Below are positions 1-26,334 of a DNA stretch of 37,009 nt, one piece after another. This stretch comes from Elusimicrobiota bacterium (GTDB lineage: Bacteria; Elusimicrobiota; Elusimicrobia; UBA1565; JACRDR01). The stretch's first letter is position 1, and each line of letters starts with the position of its first letter. The translations under genes and the position numbers were made by a program. The notes under the pieces are model-generated. The model searched no databases, was not told the origin of the DNA, and worked only from the letters and a program-made list of their open reading frames with translations. The stretch spans positions 1 to 37,009 of the forward strand of contig JACQPK010000032.1 in NCBI GenBank assembly GCA_016207565.1. The letters are read 5' to 3'.

Positions 1-3000
1 CCGCCGAAGGCCGCCGTGGTCGCGACCGAGGCGAGGCCCGGGTCGTACGCGAGCCCGCCCGGCGTCGTCGCCCGGGCCGACGCGTAGCGCGTCCCGGCCG
101 GGTTCCCGTTCGCGGTCCAGGCGACGGAGACGGAGTTGGGCGAGACCGAGGACGGCAGGAGATCGGCCGGGGTCGCCGCGAACGTCGCCGCGGAGGCCGG
201 GCCGGACTCCGTCACGCCGCCCGCGTTGAACGACTGCACGCGGTACGGGCCGACCCACGTGTTCGTCGCGAGCCCGAGTTGGAGCCAGGCGGTCGTGTCG
301 GGCGGCAGGTTGCCCGAGACGTTGGCGGCGCCGAGCATCACGCGATAGCCCGCCTCGCTGCCCGAGTTGTCGGTCCAGGTCCAGAGGATGCGAGTGCTCG
401 ACAGCGGCGTGCCGGCGAAGCCGCTCGGCGGCGCGGCGGCGGGCAGCGCGCCGGTCACGACGGCCGTCGAGGGGCCGGCGGTGAAGGCGCCCTCGACGTT
501 GACCGCCTGGAGCTGGTACGCGTAGAGCGTCGAAGGCGTCAACCCATAGTCGGCGTAGCTCGTCACGACGCCGCTGAAAGCGACCGACGCGCCGCCGCCC
601 GTGGAGCGCAGGAGTTGGTAGGTGGTCCCCGCGGGGTTGCCGGCCGCGCCCCAGGTCAGCGAGACGCTCGTCGAAGAGACGGCGGTCACCGCGAGGCCCG
701 ACGGCGGGGCGGCGAGGGTGGCGCGCGACGCTTGTCCCGAGTCGGCGGTCCCGCCGAGGTTGAACGCGCGCGCGACGTAGGGGCCCTTGAACGCGTTCGG
801 GCCTAGGCCTGCCTGCAGCCAGGTCGTGGTACCCGGCGGCAGGTCGCCCGACACGCTGATCGTGCCGCTCATCACGCGGAAGCCCCTCTCGTTGGTCGAG
901 CCCGGCGTCCAGCTCCACCGGATCGCCGCCGCGCCGAGGGCGACCCCCGAGAAGCTCGTCGGCGCGAGCGGCATCTCCTCGGCGAGCGTGCTCGCGACGG
1001 CGGGGCCGGCGTAGGACGTCGCTACCTGGTCGCCGTTTTCCGCGCGGACCCGGTACTGGTAGGTCGCCGAGGGCGTCAGCCCCGCGTCTCTAAAGGAAAG
1101 GCCGGTGGTCGACGCGATCTGGTCGAAGCTCGCTCCGTTGAAGCGCTCGAGCCGGTACACGGTCCCTGCCGGGTTGTCGTTCGCCGACCAGCCCAGGGTG
1201 ATCGTCATCGAGGTCGCGGCGATCGCGGCGAGGCCCGCCGGAGTCCGCGCGAGCGTGCGGCGCGACGCGTTGATCGAGGCCCAGTTGGCGCTCGGACCTT
1301 CGACCATGACGTCGTAGGAGCCGTAGAGCGTGTTCGGCGCGAGCCCCGTCTGGAGCCAGGTCGTGGCGCCCGGCCCGAGGTTGCCGGAGATGTTGGTCGT
1401 CCCGGATCGCACCTGATAGTTCGTTTCGTTGCACGCGTTGTCGTACCAGACCCACAGGATCGAGTCCGGACCGGCGGCGGTTCCGCGGAAGCCGCTCGGC
1501 GAGGCGGGCGCCGGGACGTATTGGAGGTTGCCCGGCGAGCCGGTCGCGGCGATGCCGTCGCCGTTGAGGACGCGCACCTGGTAGGCCACGGCGGTCACGA
1601 AACAGGTCGTGACTTCCGGGCTCGCGTCCCGGTAGGAGGTCGACGTCGACGTGGCGAGGGCCGCGTACGGCCCGCCCAGCCCGTTCGTCGAGCGCTGCAG
1701 CTCATACATGGTGCCGGGCGGATTCCCCGCCGTGCTCCAGCTCACGCCGATCTCCGTGCGGGTGCTCGCCGGCGCGAGGAAGTGGAACGGGGTCGGAGGC
1801 TGCGCGACCGCCGCCGCCCCGGCGAGCGTGTAGCGGCTCGCGGAGTTGGAGTCGGCGGTCCCGCCCGTGTTGAAGGCCCGCACGAGATAAGGCCCGTAGC
1901 CCGTGTTCACCTCGAGGCCCGTTTGCAGCCAAGCCGTCGTGTTGGGAGGGAGATATCCCGAGACGTCCGTCGTTCCGGCCATGACGCGGAATCCGGCTTC
2001 GTTCGTCGAGCCGTCGGTCCAGGTCCAGCGGATCTTACCCGTATCGATCGCCGAGCCCTCGAAGCCGCTCGGCGCGAGCGGCGTCGTCTCCAGGGTCTGC
2101 ACCCACAAGGTGGAGCGCGTGGTGGCGATCCCGTTCACGTTGATCGCGTACACCTCGAAGTAGTAGCTCGTGCCCGGCGTCAGCCCCGTCGACGTGAAGA
2201 CCGTGGGGCCGGGGCTGACCAAGATGTGCGGGAAGCCGACGATGGGGGCGAACGTCGACTTATCGAGGATCCAGGTCGTCCAGGTCGGGTTGGAGCCCGG
2301 CTGCCACGACAGCGTCACGCTCGTGACGTGGACCGCGTCGGCCGCCAGCCCGAAGGGCGGCACCGCGCGGGCGTAGCCCGTCCGGAGGTTCGAGTCCGCG
2401 GCCCCGCCCGCGTTGAAGGCCCGGACCTTGAGCGCGCCCACCGTCGAGTTGGTCGACAGCCCGAGTTGCGTCCACCGCGTCGTGCCGGGGGGCAGGTCGC
2501 CCGATAGGCTCACCGTGCCCAACAGGACCCGGAAGCCGTCCTCGTTGCCGGAATTGTCGCTCCAATACCACAGGACCGAGTTGACGGTCGCGTCCCAGAT
2601 GTCGAATCCCGTCGGCGCCGCGGGCGGCGCGGTCAACGTGACGACCGTGAGGACGCCCCCGAAGCCCGTCCAGATCCCATCGCCGTTCTGAGCCCGCATC
2701 CGCCACGTGTAGGTCGAGTTGGAGCTGAGGCCGGATTGAGTGAAGGTCGAGGCCGAGTAACCCACAAAGGCCGCGGCGAACGGCCCGCCGGTGGAGCGCT
2801 GCAGCTCCCACACGGTGGCCTCCGCGGGAGGCGCGGCCGGCCACGCGGGATTGCCGTTGGCGCCCCATGTCACCGAGATGCTGCTTACGCCGACGGTCAA
2901 CAACGTCGGGCCGGCCGGCACCTGCGCGAGGGAATGACGGGACGCCGTGCTGGAGTCGACCGTCCCGCCCGCGTTGAAGGCGCGCACGAAGAGCGGCCCT

Positions 3001-6000
3001 GCCAGGCGGTTGGGCAGGAGGCCGGCCTGGAGCCAGGAGGTCGTGTCGGGAGGCAGGTCGCCCGAGAGGCTGGTCGTCCCGGCCATGACCCGATAGCCGG
3101 CCTCGTCGGACGCGTTGTCCGTCCAGGTCCACAGGATCTTGTCCGTATCGAGCGCGATCCCGCCGAAGCCCGCCGGAGCGACCGGGGCTGTCCCGGACGA
3201 CGTCGTGACCGTCAGGGGCGGCGAGTCCTCCCAGCCCGGCGAGCCGAACGCCCGGAGGCGGATCGGCCCGTAGGAAACGCCCGGCAGCAGTCCCGTCTGG
3301 ATCCAGAACGTCGTGTTGGGGGCCAGGTCGCCCGAGAGGCTGGCCGTTCCTTGCATCACCCGGTAGCCGGCCTCGCCGGTGAACTCGTCGTTCCACGACC
3401 ACCGGATCGAGTTGGGGCCGAGCGCGGTCCCTTGGAACGAGGCGAACGTGTTCAACCAGAAGAGGGAGGCCGAGTACACGGGTCCGGGGTCGTAGCCGGA
3501 ATGGACCCCGTCGCCGTTGATCGCGCCGGCCCGGAACGACACCTGCGCGGAGCGCGTCGCGACGTACACGAGGGAGGGAGCCGCGGAACTCAGTTGGATG
3601 GTGGTCCAGGTGGCGCTGCTGGTCGGGAAATCCTCGTCGAAGAGGTTGTACTCGACGGCGATCTGGAGATCATAGATCGTGCCGGGTGGGTTCCCCGCGG
3701 TGGGCCATGTCACCGTCATGCTCGAGTCGAGTATCGCGCCGCTGAGATTCAGTGGGATGGCGGCGAGGGTGTAGCGGCTCGCCGCCGTGGAGTCGGCCGC
3801 TCCGCCTCCGTTGAAGGCGCGGACGGCGTAAGGTCCGTACTGCGTGTTCGTGGAGAGACCTGTTTGCAGCCACGACGTGGCGCCCGCCGGTAGATCCCCG
3901 GAGACGGCGATCGTGCCGCTCATCACGCGGTAACCCATCTCATCGGAGGCGTTGTCGGTCCACGTCCACCGGATCCTGCCGGTGTCGAGCGCGCTTCCGG
4001 TCAACGCCGACGGGGCGACCGGAGCGGAAGAGCCAGGGAACGTGTAGTCGGCATAGTCGCTGCCGCCGAAAGCGGTTCCGTCACCGTTGAAGGCATTGAA
4101 GAAGAGACGGTAAGCGCCCGCCGGCGCGGCCTCATAGACGCGGTAGTTCGCGCTGGAAACGGTGAGCGGCCATTGCGGTGGGTCGAAGCCTGGCGGATAG
4201 ATCGCGAATCCGGCTTCATAGGTGGTCCGGGCCGGGTCATTGCCGGCGTAGTCCCAATCCACTCTGAAGGAGCTGGACGAGAGCGCTGTGAATCGGATGT
4301 TCTCGGGATGAGCGGCCCCCGTGTGGCAGCCCTCCGGGGCGGGCTTGTTGCAGTCCGGGTCCGCGACGCGAGCCGTCCCGGTGGCGTTGAAGGCCTCGAC
4401 GGTCGTGCCGAGTCCGACCGGCAGGTTCGGGCCCGGCGCGGTTTCCACCCACTCGATCACCCACGCGGGGGTCGTGCTCGCGGGCAAGTCTCCGGAGAGG
4501 TTGATCGTCCCGCGCAGGACGCGGTAGCCGAGCTCGTCGGAAGCGTTGTCGCGCCAGCGCCAGCGGATCGTGCCCGTGCTGTCCGGGCTGGCCTCGAATC
4601 CGGAGGGCGCGATCGGAAAGCCGGCCGGGAGCGTCATGGCGCTCACGGGTCCTGTGTAGGCGGTGAAGATCCCGTCTCCGTTCTTCAGTCGCGTCCGGAG
4701 TTGGTAGGCGGTCGAGGGGGCCAGTCCGCTCACCGTCGCGCCCGCCCACAGGAACGTGCCGGACCCGATGAAGACGAACGGCCCTCCGGTCGACAGTTCC
4801 GTCTCCCAAGACGTCGATCCGGGATTCCCGGGCCCAGGGTACTCATGGGGATCCGAGAACTCGAGCTTGATGGTCGTGGGACCGACCGCCGCGATCGGCA
4901 TTGTCGACAGCGGCGCCGCGAACGTATGGCGGGAGGCCGCGGGTGAGTCGGCGGCTCCGGCGGCGCTGAAGGCTCGGACGAAATAGGGTCCCCGGAGAGT
5001 GTTGGTGGACAGGCCGCCCTGGGTCCACGAGGTGGAGTTGGGCGGTAGGTCGCCGGACAGGTTCGTCGCGCCGCTCATCACGCGGTAGCCGGCCTCGTTA
5101 TTGGAGTTGTCGCTCCAAGACCAGCGAATCGAGTGCGTATTGAGGGCGCTGCCCGCGAACGCCGTCGCGGCGACCGGCGCGCTGTCGACGGCCCCGGCGA
5201 CGATCGACAGCGAGACGGTCGCGGCGGCATAGGTGCCGTCGCCGTTGCGGGCCTGCACGCGGTACCAATATGTGGTCGGGCCCGGCAGGCCTGTGTCGGC
5301 CCAGGCCGTCGCCGTCGGGCTCGCGACGAGCACGCCCGGGGGGTAGATCGTGGAGCGGTAGACATCGTAGCGCGTGCCGGGCGGGTTGCCGTTGTCCGTC
5401 CACGACAGCGTCGCGCTCGACACGTGCCCGGCGGCGGCGAAGGAGCCGGGGATCGCCGTGGCGGTCCAACGCGTCGCCGGCAGGGAGTTCGCCGTGCCCG
5501 AGCTGTTGAACGCCTGGACGAAGGTCGGTCCGTAAGGGGCGTTGATCGCGAGCCCGGTCTGATTCCACGCGGTCGCGTTCGCGGCGAGGTCGCCGGAGAG
5601 GCTGATCGTGCCGCTCATGACGCGAAAGCCCGTCTCGTCGTTCGAGTTGTCGGTCCACGCCCACTCGATGGAGCTGGTCGTGAGGCCGAGACGGGTCAGG
5701 CCCGAGGGCGCGGCCGGCAATCCCGGCGTGGTCGAGACCGTGACGGAGTAGAGCTCCGCCGAGGTCAAACCCTCTCCGCCGGCGGCCAGCACCGCGCCGG
5801 ACGCGAGCAGCGTGGCCGAGAACCGTCCGCGCGCCGTCAGCATCGGGCTGAGCGAGCTCCACGCCCCGGCCGTCGAATCGAAGATCTCGACGGAGGCCGT
5901 CGTGGCCAGTGGCTCTCCGCCCATCATGAGCACGTGGCCGCTGGGCAGGAGCACCGCCTGGTGGTTCATGCGCCCGAGCCCCAGGCTCGCCGTCGCGGTC

Positions 6001-6857
6001 CAGGCCAGGGTGGCCGGGTTGAACAGGGCGGCGCCGGAGATCCCGCTGCCTCCATTGGCGCCGCCGGCGCACAGCACCCGGCCGTCGGGAAGCAGCGCCA
6101 CGGCCTGCAGGTACGCGGGACTGGGGAAACTCCCGGCCGTCGTCCACGTACCCGACGAAGGCGAGTAGACGTCCGTCGCTCCCGTGGGAGAGCCGACGCC
6201 GCTTCCCGTCTCTCCGCCGACGACGAGCACGCGTCCATCGAGGAGGCGTAAGGCGCGGCCGTAGCGGTGGCCGGCGGACATGCTCCCGGCCGAGGTCCAG
6301 AGCCCGGTTCCTGGGTCGTAGATCTCGGCCGTCTGCCAGATCGTGGTCGAGGGGCCGTTGTCGCCGCCGGCGGCGAGCACGCGGCCGTCGTCGAGCAGAA
6401 CCGCGGTGAGGCCGCGGCGCGCCGACGCCATCGAGTTCACGGTCGTCCACGTGCCGGAGGACGGGTGGTAGATCTCCGCGGACGCCAAGGACGAGTTGCC
6501 GGCCGGGTCCCCGCCGACGACCAGCACCCGGCCGTCCTGGAGGAGCACCTGGGCGTGGTGAAAGCGCGGCGTGCTCATGGTGCCCGCGGAGGACCAGAGG
6601 CCCGAGCCGGGATCGTAGATCTCCGCGGTCGCCCGGACGCCGGGGCCGCCCATGCCGCCCGTGAGCAGGACGCGTCCGTCGGGCAGCCGCGTGGTGGCCG
6701 CGAAATGCCGGTCCTGCGCCATCGAGCCCGTGAAGGTGGAGTTGGAGGTGATCTCGCCGGCGGCGGGAAGGGCGCACACGGCCGCCGCCAGGGTCAATAA
6801 GGAAGCGACCCCCCGGCGGGCGACGGACGGCAAAGCCCGTGCTCGTGACGCTTGCAT
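1..6857 (-). CDS. Giant secreted protein: signal peptide, seven kelch-like motifs, then alternating fibronectin-III-like repeats (partial, C-terminus beyond left edge, >=2285 aa)
   Basis: Reading the minus strand from ATG at 6857-6855 gives MQASRARALPSVARRGVASLLTLAAAVCALPAAGEITSNSTF..., then repeated DGRVLVVGG motifs, then repeats such as IRWTWTDNASDEAGYRVMSGT..LSGDLPPNTTSWLQTGL..NT.YGPY.VRAFN.GG.ADS. Frame checked at 6857, 4248-4250 and 1-8; open to position 1. Absent from the ORF track. Confidence 0.9.
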   Translation of the reverse strand, partial: MQASRARALPSVARRGVASLLTLAAAVCALPAAGEITSNSTFTGSMAQDRHFAATTRLPDGRVLLTGGMGGPGVRATAEIYDPGSGLWSSAGTMSTPRFHHAQVLLQDGRVLVVGGDPAGNSSLASAEIYHPSSGTWTTVNSMASARRGLTAVLLDDGRVLAAGGDNGPSTTIWQTAEIYDPGTGLWTSAGSMSAGHRYGRALRLLDGRVLVVGGETGSGVGSPTGATDVYSPSSGTWTTAGSFPSPAYLQAVALLPDGRVLCAGGANGGSGISGAALFNPATLAWTATASLGLGRMNHQAVLLPSGHVLMMGGEPLATTASVEIFDSTAGAWSSLSPMLTARGRFSATLLASGAVLAAGGEGLTSAELYSVTVSTTPGLPAAPSGLTRLGLTTSSIEWAWTDNSNDETGFRVMSGTISLSGDLAANATAWNQTGLAINAPYGPTFVQAFNSSGTANSLPATRWTATAIPGSFAAAGHVSSATLSWTDNGNPPGTRYDVYRSTIYPPGVLVASPTATAWADTGLPGPTTYWYRVQARNGDGTYAAATVSLSIVAGAVDSAPVAATAFAGSALNTHSIRWSWSDNSNNEAGYRVMSGATNLSGDLPPNSTSWTQGGLSTNTLRGPYFVRAFSAAGAADSPAASRHTFAAPLSTMPIAAVGPTTIKLEFSDPHEYPGPGNPGSTSWETELSTGGPFVFIGSGTFLWAGATVSGLAPSTAYQLRTRLKNGDGIFTAYTGPVSAMTLPAGFPIAPSGFEASPDSTGTIRWRWRDNASDELGYRVLRGTINLSGDLPASTTPAWVIEWVETAPGPNLPVGLGTTVEAFNATGTARVADPDCNKPAPEGCHTGAAHPENIRFTALSSSSFRVDWDYAGNDPARTTYEAGFAIYPPGFDPPQWPLTVSSANYRVYEAAPAGAYRLFFNAFNGDGTAFGGSDYADYTFPGSSAPVAPSALTGSALDTGRIRWTWTDNASDEMGYRVMSGTIAVSGDLPAGATSWLQTGLSTNTQYGPYAVRAFNGGGAADSTAASRYTLAAIPLNLSGAILDSSMTVTWPTAGNPPGTIYDLQIAVEYNLFDEDFPTSSATWTTIQLSSAAPSLVYVATRSAQVSFRAGAINGDGVHSGYDPGPVYSASLFWLNTFASFQGTALGPNSIRWSWNDEFTGEAGYRVMQGTASLSGDLAPNTTFWIQTGLLPGVSYGPIRLRAFGSPGWEDSPPLTVTTSSGTAPVAPAGFGGIALDTDKILWTWTDNASDEAGYRVMAGTTSLSGDLPPDTTSWLQAGLLPNRLAGPLFVRAFNAGGTVDSSTASRHSLAQVPAGPTLLTVGVSSISVTWGANGNPAWPAAPPAEATVWELQRSTGGPFAAAFVGYSASTFTQSGLSSNSTYTWRMRAQNGDGIWTGFGGVLTVVTLTAPPAAPTGFDIWDATVNSVLWYWSDNSGNEDGFRVLLGTVSLSGDLPPGTTRWTQLGLSTNSTVGALKVRAFNAGGAADSNLRTGYARAVPPFGLAADAVHVTSVTLSWQPGSNPTWTTWILDKSTFAPIVGFPHILVSPGPTVFTSTGLTPGTSYYFEVYAINVNGIATTRSTLWVQTLETTPLAPSGFEGSAIDTGKIRWTWTDGSTNEAGFRVMAGTTDVSGYLPPNTTAWLQTGLEVNTGYGPYLVRAFNTGGTADSNSASRYTLAGAAAVAQPPTPFHFLAPASTRTEIGVSWSTAGNPPGTMYELQRSTNGLGGPYAALATSTSTSYRDASPEVTTCFVTAVAYQVRVLNGDGIAATGSPGNLQYVPAPASPSGFRGTAAGPDSILWVWYDNACNETNYQVRSGTTNISGNLGPGATTWLQTGLAPNTLYGSYDVMVEGPSANWASINASRRTLARTPAGLAAIAATSMTITLGWSANDNPAGTVYRLERFNGASFDQIASTTGLSFRDAGLTPSATYQYRVRAENGDQVATSYAGPAVASTLAEEMPLAPTSFSGVALGAAAIRWSWTPGSTNERGFRVMSGTISVSGDLPPGTTTWLQAGLGPNAFKGPYVARAFNLGGTADSGQASRATLAAPPSGLAVTAVSSTSVSLTWGAAGNPAGTTYQLLRSTGGGASVAFSGVVTSYADYGLTPSTLYAYQLQAVNVEGAFTAGPSTAVVTGALPAAAPPSGFAGTPLSSTRILWTWTDNSGSEAGYRVMLGAANVSGNLPPDTTAWLQLGLATNTWVGPYRVQSFNAGGVTESGPASAATFAATPADLLPSSVSPNSVSVAWTANGNPAGTRYASARATTPGGLAYDPGLASVATTAAFG
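250..5720 (-). repeat. Alternating A/B fibronectin-III-like repeats, about 11 A-type units at about 540-595 bp period
   Basis: The codons for GYRVM-type motifs (plus strand c-a-t-c-a-c-g-c-g-g-t-a-g-c-c and variants) recur near 338, 870, 1408, 1980, 2524, 3084, 3354, 3920, 4515, 5076 and 5617. Confidence 0.8.
5740..6780 (-). repeat. Seven kelch/galactose-oxidase-like motifs (predicted seven-bladed beta-propeller)
   Basis: Seven motifs: LPDGRVLLTGG, LQDGRVLVVGG, LDDGRVLAAGG, LLDGRVLVVGG, LPDGRVLCAGG, LPSGHVLMMGG, LASGAVLAAGG, each followed by (S/T)AE(I/L)Y-type strands. Confidence 0.75.
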
Positions 6858-6873
6858 TCGGCGCGATGCAACG

Positions 6874-6965
6874 TCTGCTTCGGCAGCCACGGCCCGCTCG
6901 TCGAGAGCGCCGCGGCATTGCGCCCCCGGGTCGCCCCGGGTTTGCCCTTATCGGTCTCGCGCCGG
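6874..6965 (-). promoter_or_regulatory. Candidate cyclic-di-GMP class I (GEMM-I) riboswitch aptamer
   Basis: Minus strand: GATAAGGGCAAACCCGGGGCGACCCGGGGGCGCAATGCCGCGGCGCTCTCGACGAGCGGGCCGTGGCTGCCGAAG. Matches the GEMM-I layout GGGCAAACC - GNRA-capped stem (GCGA here) - GCAAAGCC (GCAATGCC here) - second stem - GCCGGGTTGCCG-like 3' segment. Located in the leader of the kelch/FN3 gene. Confidence 0.78.
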
Positions 6966-7069: not shown

Positions 7070-7882
7070 TCACGGCGCTTGGTCGAAGCCGAGATCGTCG
7101 AGCCAGGCGGCTTCGGCCTGCTCGGCGGTGACGCCGAACGCCTCGCGAAAGGCGGCCTTCCAGGGGGTCGTCTTCGACCGGCGGAAGAAATCGGCCACCA
7201 CGCGCGGCCCGTGCTTGTCGACGAGCGGCTTCATGAAGGAGCCGGCGATCGGGTAGGCGGCGTTCTCGTCGAGCCGCTCGAAGCGGGCCGAAAGGCGGTC
7301 GAGGGAGCGTAGCTGCGGGTTGGCTTTCAGCCAGCCGCGCGCGACGTCTTTCACCTTCCGTCCGCCCCAGCGCCCGCCCTCGTCGAAAGCCACGGCCAGG
7401 CCTTCCGTGAAGAACTTGCCCGGGTCGCCGATCTTCATTGAGACGAGGTGGACGAGCTCGTGCTCGTGCACCTTATCGGTCGAGTGGACGACGCCGGTCT
7501 CGGGGTAGGCGACCCCCGAGGCGTAGCGGCCCGTGACCGCCGAGATCTCGGCGGCGTGCTCGTGGTGGAAGTAGTGCACCTTCACCGTCACGGTCTCGCC
7601 GAGCAGGCGCTCGAAGCGCTCGAGGTTCTTTTGCACCTTCTTCGCGTCGACGCGCTCCTTCGGGTCGCGGCTGTAGCAGGCGACGCGCTCCGTTTCGCTC
7701 ACGAGGTGGAACCCGCGCGGGATGACCGGCGGCGGCGGGACCGCGGGCCTCGGGCGCGAGGACCAGGCATCGACCCGAGTCAGCGCCTCGCCGAAATGCC
7801 TCGCGAGCTCGCCGTCGTCCGCGCGGGCGGAAAGGGCGAAGAGCAGCATAGCGGCCGCCGCGGCCGGGAGAGGCATCGACAT
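7070..7882 (-). CDS. Secreted gluzincin-like metallopeptidase (peptidase MA-like)
   Basis: N-terminal signal-like MSMPLPAAAAAMLLFALSARA; HEHELVH contains HExxH, followed by FFTEGLAVAFDEGG with a candidate third zinc ligand. Confidence 0.7.
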   Translation of the reverse strand: MSMPLPAAAAAMLLFALSARADDGELARHFGEALTRVDAWSSRPRPAVPPPPVIPRGFHLVSETERVACYSRDPKERVDAKKVQKNLERFERLLGETVTVKVHYFHHEHAAEISAVTGRYASGVAYPETGVVHSTDKVHEHELVHLVSMKIGDPGKFFTEGLAVAFDEGGRWGGRKVKDVARGWLKANPQLRSLDRLSARFERLDENAAYPIAGSFMKPLVDKHGPRVVADFFRRSKTTPWKAAFREAFGVTAEQAEAAWLDDLGFDQAP

Positions 7883-7941: not shown

Positions 7942-10900
7942 CTATTCGACGACCGGGGCCTTGCGGCCTTTACGGACCGCGTCCGCGCGCTCGTCGATCC
8001 GACGCTTGATCTCGGGGTAGGCGACGCCGGTCAGGATCTCGATGCCTTGGCGGACGTCCGTGACGCCCCAGACGTTGAACTTGCCGGCCTTGATCGCGTC
8101 GACGATGTCCTGGCGGAGCATGAGCTCGGGGATGTTCGTCGCCGGGATGATCACGCCGTGCGAGCCGTCGAGCTCCTTGCCCGCCGCCTTGAGCTTGGCG
8201 GTTAGGACGTCGAAGTAGCCCTCGATCTTCTGGTTCACGCCGCCGATCGCCTGGACGTTGCCGAACTGGTCGGAGGAGCCCGTGATGGCGATCGCCTGCT
8301 TGATCGGCGTCTTGGAGAGCGCCGACAGCGTCGCGTAGATGTTGGTCGACGTGGAGGAGTCCCCGTCGATGCCGCCGTAGAGCTGCTCCTTCGAGACGCG
8401 GACCTCGAACGGCAGCGGCTTCTCCTGGCCGAACTCGTGGGCGAGGAAGCTCTTCAGCGTCTCGAGGCCCTTTATATAGGAAGGGCCGGACCAGCCCGCG
8501 TTGCGGTCGAGGCCGGTGACGCCGTTCTTGCCCGCCTCGACGACCACGGTCGCGCGCGTCGGCACGCCGAACTCGCCGCCGTAAACGGTCAGCGCGTTGA
8601 TCTGGCCGACCGCCGCGCCCTCGGTCTGGATGTGGAAGACGTCCTTCCAGTAGCCCTCCTGCATCCGCCGGCGCATCCGGCCCTCGAAGTCCCAGCGCTT
8701 GCGGATCGCGGTGGCGACGTCGGCTCCGGTCACCTGCGCCCGCCCGGCCTCCTTCGCCCAGTAGGTCGCCTCGGCGACGAGGTCGAGGATCGGCTTGAAC
8801 CTCGCGGACAGCTTCTCGTTGGACCCCGACTTGCGGGCGCTGTACTGGAGCACCTCGACGATCGCGTCGCGCGTCAGCTCGAGGACGCCGCTGGTCGCGT
8901 CGGCGGCCAGGCGGCGGAGGAACTGGATCGTCCCCGCGACGCTCTCGAGCGTGATGTCCATGGCGGACTCGAACTGCGCCTCCGCCTTGAAGTGGCTCTT
9001 GAAGTCCGGATCGTGCTCGGCGAGCATCATCTTGAGCGCGGGCGAGCCGATGAGGACCACCTTCACCTTGGCCTGCACCGCGTAGCGCTTCTCGCTGCGG
9101 CCGAGGAGCACGCCGGAGACGCCGCCCTCGGCGATCTCCGCCTGGCCCGTGCGGACCGCTCGCATGAGCGCCTGCCAGGCGCCCGGCTCGCGGAGCACGT
9201 CCATGAGGTCGAGCACGAGGAAGCCGCCGTTGGCGCGGATGAAGGAGCCCGCCTTGAGCATCGGGCCGCCCTCGGAGTCCGCCTTCACCATGCCCGCGCC
9301 GGGAACCATCATCACGCGCTGCGAGTCCTGCACCGAGCCCATCAGGTTCTCGAACGTGGGCGTGCGCTCGAAGATCACCGGCGCGCCGCCGCCCGGCGCG
9401 TTCGTCGCCAGGGTCTTCACGCGGAACGCCTCCGTGGGATCGGTCCGCCGCGCCGCCATCATCTTCGCCAGCGGGTGGCCGCCTTCCTCGCGCTGAGGGA
9501 GGAAGCCCTCGCGCGCCGCGGCGACTCGGCTCAAGAGCTCGCGGACCCACTCGTCGGCCCGCCGCTCCGCCGCCGTGGGCGCGGGGTCGTTCGCGTGCAG
9601 CGCTTGGTGCTCGACCGCGAGCTGTTGGGCGAGCCGCGCCAGCCCCTTGCGGTACTCGCCGGCGAAGGCCTTGATCTCCTGCTGGAGCCGGCCCCAGGAC
9701 TCGGGCGTGAGCTCGCCCGACGCGAGCATCCCCTCGAGGAGCTCCTGCGTGACGGGCTGCCCGTCCTTGTTGAGCTGCGGCATGGGCAGCGTGCCCATCG
9801 GGGTCTGCGCCATGCGGATGACCGCCAAGAACGGTCCGATCTGCCGCGAGCCGTTGGTGCGGCGGTACTCCTCCATGAGCTGCTTGGCGCGCTTGTCGAG
9901 CTCGGCGTGGCGAGCGTCGTCGTGCGGGGCGGGCGTGCTCACGAGGCTCCGCAGGCCGGAGCCGAGGGCGCTGACGACCTCGAGCGCGGCGGCGTCGTCG
10001 ATCTTGGACATCTGCTGGTGCGCCGCCGCGTGCTCGTGGGCGGTCTGCTCCGCGAGGCGGACGTAGTGGGTCATCACTTGCTGGGCGACCTGCTGTAGCT
10101 CGGCCTGCGCCTGGTCCCACTCCTGCTGGGTGAAATGGCTCTGCTGGATGTGCTCCTTCTCGGCGCCCTTCGGCACGGGCTGCCCCTGGAACGTCGGGGC
10201 GATCGCGAGCGAGGCGCGGCCTTCCCCGTCCTGCTGGGGCTGCACGTAGAGGCCGAAGCGCCCGCCGGCGAGGCGGGTCTGTCCGATCGCCTCCTTGAAC
10301 TCGGTCTCGCGCGCGGCGGCCTGCTGCTCGTAGGCGTCGTGGATCGCCTTCTTCTGCGCCGCCGCGGGGCCGGTGTTGAGCGCGAGCGGCAGCGTCTGGC
10401 GCAGCCCGTTGAAGAGCTCGGACAGCCCCTTCTCGAGCGCGGGTCCGTTGCCGGCCGGCACCTCCAGGACGAGCGGCTGCTCCTGGTTCTCGAAGTTCGT
10501 GACCGAGACGAGGTCGTTGGGCGTCGCGAGCTTCGGCGCGACCTCGGCGAGGATGTGGCGGACCGCCGTCTCGCGGCCGGCCCCGTCGGGCCCGGTCAGG
10601 ATGACGTTGTGTCCCTTGCCTTCCATCCGCAGGCCCCAGCGCAGCGCCTCGAGGCCGAGGTCCTGACCGACGATCTCCTTCTCGATCTTGGGGAGGTTTT
10701 GGGCCTGCTCGAGGAGGCCCGCGTCGGGCACCCAGCGCAGGCGGTCGGCGCGCACCTTGTACGCGTCGGGAGAGGCGGGCTCGGGCTTGGGCGCCTTCGC
10801 GCTCGCGCGCTCCTCGGCGAGGCGCCGCACGGGAGCGGGCAGGAGGGGGAAGCGGGCGAGGCGGTCCCAGAAGCCGAGCGAGGGCATCGGCGCGGCCGTC

Positions 10901-11430
10901 GGGACCGCCGGGCGGACGCCGTTCTCGAAGAGCTGGTCGAGGGCGAACTGGCGGGCCAGCCCGGGCGGGGTCGCGGCGGCGTCCGCGAGCTTGAGGATGC
11001 TGTCGCGGGCTCCGCCCGGAGGCAACGCCTCGGCGGCCTGCCGCAGCCGGGCCGCGTCGGCCGGCCCGTCGAGGGCTTCGGGCAGCGCGACGCCGGCACG
11101 CTGGAGCGTGTTGAGCACCTCGAGCACCGGGTGGCGCTCGACGCTGCCCGCGGACGCGAGGCCGGCGGCCGCGGTTCGCGGGAGCGCCAGGTCGACGGCG
11201 ATCGGGGACGCGGCGACCGGAGCCATGACCCGGGCGACGGGCGCCGAGAGCGGGAAGGGGTTGCGCAGCGTCGCGTTGCCGATGTCGAGCGGCGCGACCG
11301 GGGTCGCCGGGAGCGCCAGCACGCGGACGCCGGCCACCGCCGACGGGATCGCGATGCGTTGCGCCCAGGCCGAAGGCGCCGGCCCCAACAGGAGCGCCGC
11401 TGCCAAGAACACGCGAAGCACAGTAGTCAT
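7942..11430 (-). CDS. LonB-like ATP-dependent protease with N-terminal signal peptide and Ala/Pro-rich linker
   Basis: Signal-like MTTVLRVFLAAALLLGPAPSAWAQ; P-loop-like ILTGPDGAGRETAVRHIL; GGFLVLDLMDVLREPGAWQALMRAVRTGQAEI; Lon proteolytic segment GGIDGDSSTSTNIYATLSALSKTPIKQAIAITGSSDQFGNVQAIGGVNQKIEGYFDVL with Ser/Lys dyad context. Confidence 0.88.
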   Translation of the reverse strand: MTTVLRVFLAAALLLGPAPSAWAQRIAIPSAVAGVRVLALPATPVAPLDIGNATLRNPFPLSAPVARVMAPVAASPIAVDLALPRTAAAGLASAGSVERHPVLEVLNTLQRAGVALPEALDGPADAARLRQAAEALPPGGARDSILKLADAAATPPGLARQFALDQLFENGVRPAVPTAAPMPSLGFWDRLARFPLLPAPVRRLAEERASAKAPKPEPASPDAYKVRADRLRWVPDAGLLEQAQNLPKIEKEIVGQDLGLEALRWGLRMEGKGHNVILTGPDGAGRETAVRHILAEVAPKLATPNDLVSVTNFENQEQPLVLEVPAGNGPALEKGLSELFNGLRQTLPLALNTGPAAAQKKAIHDAYEQQAAARETEFKEAIGQTRLAGGRFGLYVQPQQDGEGRASLAIAPTFQGQPVPKGAEKEHIQQSHFTQQEWDQAQAELQQVAQQVMTHYVRLAEQTAHEHAAAHQQMSKIDDAAALEVVSALGSGLRSLVSTPAPHDDARHAELDKRAKQLMEEYRRTNGSRQIGPFLAVIRMAQTPMGTLPMPQLNKDGQPVTQELLEGMLASGELTPESWGRLQQEIKAFAGEYRKGLARLAQQLAVEHQALHANDPAPTAAERRADEWVRELLSRVAAAREGFLPQREEGGHPLAKMMAARRTDPTEAFRVKTLATNAPGGGAPVIFERTPTFENLMGSVQDSQRVMMVPGAGMVKADSEGGPMLKAGSFIRANGGFLVLDLMDVLREPGAWQALMRAVRTGQAEIAEGGVSGVLLGRSEKRYAVQAKVKVVLIGSPALKMMLAEHDPDFKSHFKAEAQFESAMDITLESVAGTIQFLRRLAADATSGVLELTRDAIVEVLQYSARKSGSNEKLSARFKPILDLVAEATYWAKEAGRAQVTGADVATAIRKRWDFEGRMRRRMQEGYWKDVFHIQTEGAAVGQINALTVYGGEFGVPTRATVVVEAGKNGVTGLDRNAGWSGPSYIKGLETLKSFLAHEFGQEKPLPFEVRVSKEQLYGGIDGDSSTSTNIYATLSALSKTPIKQAIAITGSSDQFGNVQAIGGVNQKIEGYFDVLTAKLKAAGKELDGSHGVIIPATNIPELMLRQDIVDAIKAGKFNVWGVTDVRQGIEILTGVAYPEIKRRIDERADAVRKGRKAPVVE

Positions 11431-11603
11431 GTTAGCCTCTTCCCTTATATAGAGACGGGGGCGCGCCCTGGCGCCGGGTCTCCAGAGGCTCGGATTCTAG
11501 GGAAACGACCGCGACATGTGGTGGGTCCTAGGGTCCCGTGGGCCAGGATAGTGGGCCTAGCGACGCGTGGGGCGATCGTACTAGAATGCGGCCCGGTTCC
11601 CGC

Positions 11604-21716: not shown

Positions 21717-21755
21717 AGGGTCCCAGGGCCCAGGTTCGATTGGGCCTTTAGACCC
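21717..21755 (-). terminator. Candidate intrinsic terminator at the end of the first PiT gene
   Basis: Minus strand AGGCCCAATCGAACCTGGGCCCT hairpin within gggtcccagggcccaggttcgattgggcctttagaccc. Confidence 0.4.
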
Positions 21756-22737
21756 AGTAGAGGAAGATCCAGAAGAACGCTGCCGAGATCGCCGCCGACG
21801 CGGGAATCGTCATGACCCACGCCCACACGATGCGGCCGCCCACGTCCCATTTCACGGCCGACATCCGGCGCAGGGAACCGACGCCCATGATCGCTCCGGT
21901 GATGGTGTGCGTCGTGCTCACGGGGACGCCGAGGGCCGAGGCCAAATAGAGCGTCGCCGCGCCGCCGGTCTCGGCGGAGAACCCGTCGAAGGGCCGGAGC
22001 TTCGCGACGCGCTGCCCCATCGTCTTCACGATGCGCCAGCCGCCGAAGAGCGTCCCGAAGCCCATCGCCGCGTGGCACGACAGGACGACCCAGGTGGGGA
22101 CGTAGAAGGTGTCGCCGAGCTTGCCGGCCGAGAACAGCGCCACGGCGATGATGCCCATCGTCTTCTGGGCGTCGTTTCCCCCGTGTCCGAGGCTGTAGAG
22201 CGCCGCCGACACGAGCTGGCCCTTGCGGAAGATGTGGTCCACCTTTCCGGGGCTGGAATGCCGGAAGAGCCAGTACATCGCCACGCCGATGATCGAGCCC
22301 ATGAGCATTCCCAAAAACGGGGCGAGGATCATGAACAGCACGGTCTTCTTGATGCCGGCCCAGACCAGGCCGTGCGTGCCCACCTTCACCAGCGCGGCGC
22401 CGATGAACCCGCCGATGAGGGCATGCGACGAGCTCGTCGGCAGTCCCCAATACCAGGTGAGCAGGTCCCAGGCGCACGCCCCGATCAGTGTCGCCGCGAT
22501 CACGCTGTTGTCGACGATCTTAGGGTCGACGATCCCCTTGCCGATCGTGTTCGCCACGTGCAGCTCGAAGAACACGAAGGCGATGAAGTTGAAGAACGCC
22601 GCCCAGATCACCGCCGTTCGCGGGGTCAGCACGCGCGTCGAGACGACGGTCGCGATGGAGTTCGCCGAGTCGTGGAACCCGTTGATGAAGTCGAAGGCTA
22701 GGGCAAGGAGGATCAGGCCGACGAGCTGCGGCTCCAT
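21748..22737 (-). CDS. pit: Inorganic phosphate transporter, PiT family (copy 1)
   Basis: FINGFHDSANSIATVVSTRVL, GLPTSSSHALIGG, SLGHGGNDAQKTMGI, GVPVSTTHTITGAIMGVG. Confidence 0.93.
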   Translation of the reverse strand: MEPQLVGLILLALAFDFINGFHDSANSIATVVSTRVLTPRTAVIWAAFFNFIAFVFFELHVANTIGKGIVDPKIVDNSVIAATLIGACAWDLLTWYWGLPTSSSHALIGGFIGAALVKVGTHGLVWAGIKKTVLFMILAPFLGMLMGSIIGVAMYWLFRHSSPGKVDHIFRKGQLVSAALYSLGHGGNDAQKTMGIIAVALFSAGKLGDTFYVPTWVVLSCHAAMGFGTLFGGWRIVKTMGQRVAKLRPFDGFSAETGGAATLYLASALGVPVSTTHTITGAIMGVGSLRRMSAVKWDVGGRIVWAWVMTIPASAAISAAFFWIFLYWV

Positions 22738-22738
22738 C

Positions 22739-23365
22739 TCAGCTCTGCTTGACCAGGATCGACTCGATGGTGTTCGCGACGTCCTCGCACTTGTCGATGG
22801 CCGCCTCGATCGCCTCGTAGATCTCCTTCCACTTGATCACGTGCAGCGGATCGGGCTTTCCCTCGAAGAGCCGCCCGACCGCGTGCGCGAGGGCCTGGTC
22901 GCCGGCGTTCTCCAGGCGGTTGATCTCGATGCAGTAGTCGAGGAGGCGCCGCGGGTTCGAGAGGTGCTTGAGCTCTTTGATGGCCTTTTGCACGTTTTCC
23001 GCGGACTGGTGGAGGATGTCGGCGAGGTCGACCATGTCCTTGGGCACCTCGGAGATCTTGAACAGCTTCATCCGGATGGATACGGACTGGGCGAGGTCGA
23101 CGATGTCGTCGAGTTCGCTGGCGAGCGCATGGATGTCCTCGCGGTCGAAGGGCGTGATGAAGGTTCGATTCAGCTTGTCGATGATCTCGTGCGTGGTGAT
23201 GTCGGCTTCGTGCTCGATGTCGCGCAGCTTATCGATCAGCGGCGAATCGGAGCTCCATTTTTGACACAACTCCTTGAAGAGCCGTGTCGCCTCGACATTG
23301 TGTGCCGCCTGCGCCTCGAAAAAATCGAAGAACTTTTCTTCTTTGGGGATGAGACTGATCGCCAT
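22739..23365 (-). CDS. DUF47/PhoU-like protein (copy 1)
   Basis: MAISLIPKEEKFFDFFEAQ...LRDIEHEADITTHEIIDKLNRTFITPFDREDIHALASELDDIVD; SD GGAGGCGG upstream. The listed start 23422 is upstream of the likely one. Confidence 0.9.
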   Translation of the reverse strand: MAISLIPKEEKFFDFFEAQAAHNVEATRLFKELCQKWSSDSPLIDKLRDIEHEADITTHEIIDKLNRTFITPFDREDIHALASELDDIVDLAQSVSIRMKLFKISEVPKDMVDLADILHQSAENVQKAIKELKHLSNPRRLLDYCIEINRLENAGDQALAHAVGRLFEGKPDPLHVIKWKEIYEAIEAAIDKCEDVANTIESILVKQS

Positions 23366-23467
23366 GGTATCCGCCTCCGCGCGAGCCGTGTGATGATAGC
23401 ATGACGGCCGCGGCGGCCGCATCGGACGAAGGACCCGTCCGACCGAGAGGAATCGGCCCCAGGGCGG

Positions 23468-24626: not shown

Positions 24627-25622
24627 TTATCCGGCGATGAGGCGCATGACTTTGACGACAAACCAGCTGATGGCCGCGCAGATCGGGAACGTCAGCACCC
24701 AGGCGGTGATGAGCTCCGCGGTGACGCCCCAGCGCACGGCCGACGCCCTCCGGACCGAGCCGACCCCCATGATCGCGGTCGAGATCGTGTGCGTGGTGCT
24801 CAGCGGGATGCCCATGCGCGAGGCGAGCTCGATCGTCGAGGCGGCCGCCATCTCGGCGGCGAAGCCCTGGTGGGTCTCCAGCCGGGTCACTTTCATGCCC
24901 ATCGTTTTCATGATCTCCCATCCGCCGACGATCGTCCCGAGCGCCATGGTGCCGGCGCAGAGGAACATCACCCACTTGGGAATCTCGAAGGACGGTAGCA
25001 CTCCGCCGATGACCAGCGCCATCGTGAAGGTCCCCATGAACTTCTGCCCGTCGTTGGAGCCGTGGCTGAAGGCCATGAACCCGGAGGACAAGACTTGAGC
25101 CCAGCGGAACCAGCCTTTGACCGATCCCGGCGAGGACTTCCGGAAGAGCCAGTAGATCGCGGCCATGATGGCGACCCCGCCGAGGAAGCCGAGGAAGGTC
25201 GAGAAGAGGAGGCCGATGCCGACTTTCTTCCAGCCCGCCAGCACGACGACGCTGGGGCCCGCGGTGGCCAGGCCGGCTCCGGTGAGGCCTGCGACGAGCG
25301 CGTGGGATTCGCTCGTGGGGATGCCCCACTGGGCCGCCGCGGTCGACCAGATGATGATGCCGACCATGGCCCCACCGACCGTGATCAGGTCGACCGCCTT
25401 CGGATCGACGATCCCCTTGCCGATGGTGGAGGCCACGGCCGTTCCCGACAGGACGCCGACGAGGTTGAGCACAGCGGCCATGAGCACCGCCTGCCACGGA
25501 GCGAGGGAGCGCGTGCCGACCACGGTCGCGATCGCGTTGGGCGCGTCCGTCCAGCCGTTCACGAACTCCGCCCCGAGGATGAGCAAGAGCACGACGGCGA
25601 GTCCGAGGCTGATCTCGGGCAT
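24627..25622 (-). CDS. pit: Inorganic phosphate transporter, PiT family (copy 2, GWTDAPNAIATVV type)
   Basis: FVNGWTDAPNAIATVVGTRSL, GIPTSESHALVAG, FSHGSNDGQKFMG, GIPLSTTHTISTAIMGVG. Confidence 0.92.
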   Translation of the reverse strand: MPEISLGLAVVLLLILGAEFVNGWTDAPNAIATVVGTRSLAPWQAVLMAAVLNLVGVLSGTAVASTIGKGIVDPKAVDLITVGGAMVGIIIWSTAAAQWGIPTSESHALVAGLTGAGLATAGPSVVVLAGWKKVGIGLLFSTFLGFLGGVAIMAAIYWLFRKSSPGSVKGWFRWAQVLSSGFMAFSHGSNDGQKFMGTFTMALVIGGVLPSFEIPKWVMFLCAGTMALGTIVGGWEIMKTMGMKVTRLETHQGFAAEMAAASTIELASRMGIPLSTTHTISTAIMGVGSVRRASAVRWGVTAELITAWVLTFPICAAISWFVVKVMRLIAG

Positions 25623-25626
25623 CGCG

Positions 25627-26253
25627 CTAGCCCTGCTTCACGAGGATGCCTTCGATCGTGTTGGCGATGTCCTCGCATTTGACCGAGGCGGTCTCGATCG
25701 ACTCGTAGATCTCCTTCCACTTGATGACCTCGAGGGGATCGGGCTTGCCGGAGAAGAGCTTGCTCAGCGCGATGCCCAGCTGCTGGTCGCCCGCGTTCTC
25801 GAGCCGGTTGATTTCGATGCAGTAGTCGAGGAGGCGCCGGTTGCTCTTTTGGTTCTTGAGCTCGATGGTCGCCTTGAGCACGTTCTCGGTCGACTGCCAG
25901 AGAATGTCCGCGAGCGCGACGAGATCCTCCGTCGAGTGGTCGACGTGGTAGAGCTTCATGCGTGACGAGACGGATTGGATCAAGTCCACCACGTCGTCCA
26001 TCTCGCTCGCGAGCTCGTGGATGTCCTCGCGATCGAAGGGCGTGATGAAGCTGCGGTTCAGCTTGTCGATGATCTCGTGGGTCGTGATGTCCGCCTCGTG
26101 CTCGATGTCGCGGAGCTTGTCGAAGTCGGGCGATTCCACCGACCAGTTCCGGGCAAGGTCCTTGAACGCTTGGGCGGCGGCGACGTTGTGCCGGGCTTGT
26201 GCCTCGAACAACTCGAAGAACTTCTCTTCTTTGGGGATCAGGCTGATCGCCAT
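25627..26253 (-). CDS. DUF47/PhoU-like protein (copy 2)
   Basis: MAISLIPKEEKFFELFEAQ...KLRDIEHEADITTHEIIDKLNRSFITPFDREDIHELASEMDDVVD; the listed start 26331 is upstream of the likely one. Confidence 0.9.
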   Translation of the reverse strand: MAISLIPKEEKFFELFEAQARHNVAAAQAFKDLARNWSVESPDFDKLRDIEHEADITTHEIIDKLNRSFITPFDREDIHELASEMDDVVDLIQSVSSRMKLYHVDHSTEDLVALADILWQSTENVLKATIELKNQKSNRRLLDYCIEINRLENAGDQQLGIALSKLFSGKPDPLEVIKWKEIYESIETASVKCEDIANTIEGILVKQG

Positions 26254-26334
26254 GGGGGTCTCCTGCTGTCGGATGGTTGACGGCGGCATGATACCGCCGA
26301 GCCGGCGCGCGCCTCCATGGACCGCAGGCAAAAC

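Follow-up and report, generated by a model that had tools for sequence, protein, structure and literature searches.

Lon proteases are cytoplasmic, mitochondrial or inward-facing membrane enzymes, and the gene described here raises the question of what a Lon-type protease would do with an export signal at its N-terminus. It lies in a 37,009-nucleotide stretch of DNA from an uncultured Elusimicrobiota bacterium (hereafter the window), as an open reading frame that occupies exactly 7942-11430 on the minus strand and starts with ATG (Table 1). The initial annotation called the product an ATP-dependent LonB protease with a secretion signal and saw a paradox in this, ATP being scarce outside the cytoplasm. 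The reading we favor, with a probability of about 0.7, is that Elusimicrobiota have moved a LonC-type protease out of the cytoplasm, where it would degrade unfolded proteins independently of ATP. The LonC fold and the class of ATP-independent Lon-like proteases are already known; what is new is a LonC-type protease with an export signal. We found no description of an exported Lon-like protease in the literature searched on Elusimicrobia and on periplasmic Lon.

Table 1. Features of the exported Lon-like gene and its product, in window coordinates
Feature	Position	Strand	Basis
Complete CDS, exported Lon-like (LonC-type, MEROPS S16) protease, 1162 aa + stop	7942..11430	-	ORF, Pfam, PDB relatives, fold match
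Upstream region, Shine-Dalgarno-like GGGAAGAGG	11431..11455	-	Sequence; purine-rich sites also before starts of several relatives
Sec-type signal peptide, residues 1-23 (MTTVLRVFLAAALLLGPAPSAWA/Q)	11362..11430	-	Like signal in relatives with intact 5' end; n-region charge
Disordered Ala/Pro/Val-rich linker, residues 24-100, ~77 residues	11131..11361	-	AlphaFold pLDDT about 26-36; charge-poor A/P/V composition
Conserved helical module, residues ~101-169 (VLEVLNTLQRAGVALP...DAARLRQAAEALPPGG...), exported-group-specific	10924..11130	-	Profile search; helices at pLDDT 70-85
Degenerate Walker A, residues 280-288 GPDGAGRET, Lys to Arg286, Ser/Thr to Glu287	10567..10593	-	Alignment of members
Degenerate Walker B-like strand, residues 736-742 GFLVLDL, no Glu (Leu742)	9205..9225	-	Alignment; MtaLonC GYLILDA (PMC3391209)
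Catalytic Ser1025 in IDGDSSTS	8356..8358	-	Ser in 31/31 exported members having the column
Catalytic Lys1068 in GGVNQKIEG	8227..8229	-	Lys in 30/30 exported members having the column

The assignment to the LonC type rests on several lines of evidence. All four Pfam models for the expected domains score above their cut-offs, namely AAA_32 (E 1.6e-29, residues 682-821), the LonB-type lid LonB_AAA-LID (E 1.2e-18, residues 852-912), LonC_helical (E 2.7e-6, residues 310-339) and Lon_C, which is part of the Lon protease domain (E 1.6e-4, residues 1022-1069). A PDB sequence search gives LonC of Meiothermus as the best solved relative (E 8.5e-53), and an AlphaFold model computed from the window protein and 20 homologs (mean pLDDT 74, pTM 0.58) retrieves LonC structures as its top Foldseek matches (8k8v, E 9.6e-40), with archaeal LonB 3k1j at E 1.4e-24. 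Together with these four domains and the LonC fold, the protein has a Ser-Lys dyad in a GDS context and non-canonical Walker A, Walker B and sensor motifs. A relative 70% identical to it (L034) was found in the scan of named genomes. The Pfam and PDB matches bear out the Lon-type Ser/Lys core that had been proposed as complete, with the qualification that its AAA+ part is a fold with degenerate ATPase motifs. The name LonB does not hold: the LonB equivalog model lon_rel scores 112 bits against a cut-off of 517, and archaeal-type LonB is ruled out by the absence of membrane segments in the AAA+ domain (the highest 19-residue mean hydropathy past residue 30 is 1.56), of a GK[ST] Walker A and of the Walker B Glu, the positions in question being Arg286, Glu287 and Leu742. 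LonA is likewise ruled out, as the protein lacks the PF02190 LON domain, has DGDSST in place of PKDGPSAG and does not have intact AAA+ motifs.

The decay of the ATPase motifs is shared by the whole exported group. The Walker A Lys is replaced by Arg in all 33 exported members, usually followed by Glu in place of Ser/Thr, and the Walker B Glu is absent from all 33; the Walker A Lys is kept in both cytosolic-type members of the order and in 15 of 25 homologs elsewhere. LonC of Meiothermus taiwanensis (MtaLonC), with Walker A GPPSLGKHE and Walker B GYLILDA, lacks ATPase activity and needs no ATP to degrade unfolded proteins, while folded ones are not degraded (PMC3391209). Because the motifs of the window protein are degenerate like those of MtaLonC, the ATP-scarcity paradox does not arise for it. 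The same likeness supports the ATP-independent role that the initial annotation had listed as one option for an exported Lon, and speaks against its description of the enzyme as ATP-dependent; the name "ATP-dependent protease LonB" can mislead on energy use and location alike. Walker motifs are imperfect in several homologs outside the exported clade as well, so part of the loss is older than export.

The N-terminus of the window protein has one Arg, a hydrophobic core and a cleavage site at Ala21-Trp-Ala23, and contains neither a lipobox Cys nor a twin Arg. Our signal calls come from our own script for hydropathy, charge and cleavage sites, which finds a positive n-region, a hydrophobic h-region and an AxA site, all kept in orthologs; the mean n-region net charge across 25 relatives is +1.96. 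Since homologous open reading frames across the order start with the same kind of signal, its presence here is more than chance, and the proposed secretion signal is borne out as a Sec-type signal conserved across the order. The sequence AAGGGAAGAGGCTAAC lies directly upstream of the ATG, and the Shine-Dalgarno-like site reported there is present. The upstream TATATA, which had been taken as further support for the start, is not promoter evidence, as the region contains no sigma-70 match; a promoter and terminator scan of the region found nothing. The roughly 200-residue Ala/Pro-rich linker originally described proves to be composite: the disordered stretch ends near residue 100 and is followed by the conserved helical module and by further sequence that separates this module from the AAA+ fold in the AlphaFold model. 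When a profile of residues 96-155 was searched against 1,444 genes from ~2.1 Mb of related sequence, together with the LonA and PPK2 sets, every match was an exported LonC-type protein. The judgment that the signal does not reflect a mis-start therefore stands, a mis-called start being ruled out by the signals in relatives and by this conserved, group-specific module in the upstream extension.

The same architecture recurs in relatives. Signal and linker are found at 26 of 30 loci (L004-L033) from the order to which the window genome belongs, 25 of them called by the script at an acceptable start and one (L025) added from reading its open frame. The other four are damaged or cut: the start of L030 is disrupted, L015 and L024 are cut by contig ends and L019 is frameshifted, and the signal is therefore present wherever the 5' end is intact. 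Within the order, the layout is conserved in three families, namely f1, f2 and much of f3, and the phylum-wide sample shows no match in the genomes of family f5, which are small (about 1.3-1.7 Mb). In the tree, exported members form a single clade (SH-aLRT 99), apart from the cytosolic-type members of the order. Homologs without the extension occur only outside this clade, on separate branches, and no conserved internal start with loss of the extension was found within it.

These data bear on the possibility that the protein is cytoplasmic after all, an ordinary Lon-like protease with a mis-called start or a non-exporting N-terminus. Signal-less LonC homologs of about 800-820 residues do exist, in two genomes of the order (G010:C69 and G016:C44) and in other phyla, but these cytosolic-type relatives sit on their own branches, the extension is conserved in sequence down to the group-specific helical module, purine-rich sites precede the upstream starts, and cysteine has been purged in the exported group only, so we give this reading very little credence. 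An unlikely alternative of another kind is that the signal is an uncleaved anchor, tethering the protease to the inner membrane so that it faces the periplasm as an outward counterpart of archaeal LonB. A small Ala-rich hydrophobic segment followed by a long flexible linker would suit such a tether, and the mean charge is +1.96 ahead of the segment and +0.96 behind it, a difference that favors an N-in/C-out orientation; yet the window protein and most relatives have a clear AxA cleavage site. Sequence alone fits both anchoring and cleavage, and the functional side of the membrane is identical under the anchored form and the exported LonC-type protease that we favor.

A relative in which other domains follow the same N-terminal region is found in genome G034 (L069:1387-3816, plus strand). 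Over its first 56-82 residues this protein is about 41-47% identical to the signal region of the exported Lon group. It also has the group's central helical region, matching the window protein at E 6.8e-14, but in place of the Lon domains it carries a subtilisin whose Asp, His and Ser motifs are all there. Such an architecture would be expected of a protein located outside the cytoplasm. Another protein of interest, in a different order of the class, is encoded by a single open frame over a whole contig (G056, L065:1-4524, minus strand) and joins M48, Lon-like and MFS parts; it forms the sister branch of the exported group, and its Lon core is also cysteine-free. Separately, an exported-type relative in G031 (L068:2021-4516, minus strand) has the AAA+ domain and lid and ends ahead of the protease domain.

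Gene neighborhood offers few functional clues, as the genes next to the exported Lon-like gene differ between families and little sign of a conserved operon was found. The exception is family f2, in which five genomes (G004, G006, G008, G010 and G012) have an ordinary cytosolic lonA a few kb upstream on the same strand. In the window, the next gene downstream on the same strand (7073-7882, minus) encodes a signal-bearing protein with an HExxH motif (HELVH), possibly a metallopeptidase, which matched no Pfam family. Further downstream on that strand is a very large signal-bearing protein of about 2285 residues (~2-6890, minus) that appears repeat-like on reading. Two neighboring gene pairs elsewhere in the window (21748-23422 and 24627-26331, minus) resemble, by reading, a PiT-type phosphate transporter with a PhoU/DUF47-like partner.

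Besides the signal, the loss of cysteine in the exported group, the window protein included, points to a different compartment. Its 33 members have 0.38 cysteines per 1000 core residues; the corresponding value is 5.86 for the order's two cytosolic-type members and 6.53 for the 25 homologs that come from other phyla. As the exported members form one clade, this loss represents one or a few events, not 33, and the p-value for the contrast carries no phylogenetic correction. A census of the sampled contigs (about 2.1 Mb), in which proteins were picked by a strict signal-plus-linker rule blind to cysteine content, shows that the property extends to other proteins. Past residue 110, cysteine stands at 0.5 per 1000 residues in the 46 signal-plus-linker proteins; the figure is 5.9 for the remaining signal-bearing proteins and 8.6 for signal-less ones. 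About fourteen of the 46 are exported Lons and a few look like false positives, the "signal" being a first membrane span. Methionine is undiminished (23.5 vs 18.1 per 1000), so the loss of cysteine is not simple sulfur saving, an explanation that finds no support here.

Many of these proteins are cysteine-free over 400-2700 residues (on contigs of G000, G002, G006, G010, G013, G025 and G038), including ATP-grasp and multi-spanning membrane proteins, one of them with 1412 residues and 19 hydrophobic segments. The domains represented are ATP-grasp, GGDEF with a degenerate SGEEF motif, PHP, Na+/H+ exchanger, an M48-MFS fusion, M28, M50, PspA/IM30, MscS, endonuclease I and a giant subtilisin-glucanotransferase-debranching protein. 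Some signal-plus-linker proteins are ordinary exported or membrane proteins; the odd ones are ATP-grasp, LonA, PPK2 and PspA.

Two of the odd ones are encoded in the window genome itself. One is a canonical LonA with signal, linker and no cysteine (G000:C41, L077:175-3108, minus strand), related copies of which occur in genus g10. Signal-bearing LonAs form one clade (support 100), although at some of these loci the signal was recognized by eye and not by the script, or the 5' end is cut. Past the signal, their cysteine content is 0.28 per 1000 residues, compared with 6.06 for the ordinary LonAs of that order, and two conserved cysteines of ordinary LonA (ILCF, FICTAN) are substituted in nearly all of them. 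The other is a PPK2 with signal peptide and linker, again without cysteine (G000:C91, L211:1429-2673, plus strand, GTG start). The catalytic cores of 22 exported-type PPK2 sequences, 5,417 residues in total, contain no cysteine at all; 1-7 were counted in each of the few cytosolic-type PPK2s inspected. PPK2 co-occurs with the exported LonC-type gene (Fisher p 4.7e-5 over all genomes), although the association is weak without genomes under 2.5 Mb (p 0.08), and genome size and kinship may therefore explain it. PPK2 could use polyphosphate to form ATP or GTP, which would make it a possible energy source for exported LonA.

It is conceivable, though very unlikely, that the window protein uses ATP after all, in an ATP-containing compartment that it shares with exported LonA and PPK2. 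The signal-bearing LonAs, that of the window genome among them (which also has the LON domain), retain Walker A, Walker B, sensors, Arg finger and Ser-Lys dyad, and in G012 the gene immediately preceding that of the exported LonC-type protein, about 0.5 kb from it and in the same orientation, encodes a signal-plus-linker PPK2 (L182:10009-11289, plus strand). The window protein, however, has neither the Walker A Lys nor the Walker B Glu, and the studied relative MtaLonC lacks ATPase activity (PMC3391209). Since the same genomes appear to export enzymes that require NTPs, a lack of ATP outside the cytoplasm may not be what explains the decay of the ATPase motifs. A broader and rather doubtful joint reading is that these bacteria keep a cysteine-free second proteome beyond the cytoplasm, in a compartment where exported PPK2 supplies NTPs and exported LonA is one of the ATP-dependent machines; the Lon-like protease would be part of this proteome, as would the signal-plus-linker ATP-grasp, PspA-like, transporter and protease proteins. 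If true, such a compartment, extracytoplasmic or organelle-like, would have an ATP economy of its own. The presence in one genome of a LonA with intact ATPase motifs and a PPK2 raises the question of whether AAA+ proteolysis outside the cytoplasm can run on polyphosphate-derived ATP.

For the ATP-independent exported protease that we favor, a mechanism can be proposed. The signal peptide would engage Sec, and residues 1-23 would be cut off or kept as an N-in anchor. The Lon chain would cross unfolded; once out of the cytoplasm, probably in the periplasm, it would assemble into a ring that encloses the Ser/Lys sites in an inner chamber, as in LonC. Because the AAA+ layer probably cannot hydrolyze ATP, the assembled protease would be a passive gated chamber in which only unfolded or damaged polypeptides are degraded, free of ATP. 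The disordered linker and helical module may tether the protease or select substrates. For the ATP-independent Lon-like proteases, whose role is otherwise unexplained, a member adapted to work outside the cytoplasm offers a concrete candidate.

Among known systems, MtaLonC, which belongs to the Lon-like LonC subfamily (MEROPS S16) and is the nearest solved sequence, and TTC1975 of Thermus resemble the window protein in domain order, fold, Ser/Lys dyad and degenerate Walker A and B. MtaLonC is still able to bind nucleotides. The window protein is about 430 residues longer than MtaLonC, with a larger central helical region, and has a signal peptide, linker and N-terminal helical module, none of which is mentioned in the accessible part of the MtaLonC description (PMC3391209). 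Bacterial Lon-like AAA_32/LonB_AAA-LID proteins of about 800 residues, found in many phyla, share the core and the catalytic motif GDSAS/GDSST, but those examined have no export signal and several cysteines each, and about a third have a GK[ST] Walker A. Archaeal LonB, as in Thermococcus onnurineus, has related AAA+ and protease domains, but is an active ATPase anchored by membrane segments inside its AAA+ domain, and the window protein has neither property. With canonical LonA, the window protein shares only distant homology in the protease domain.
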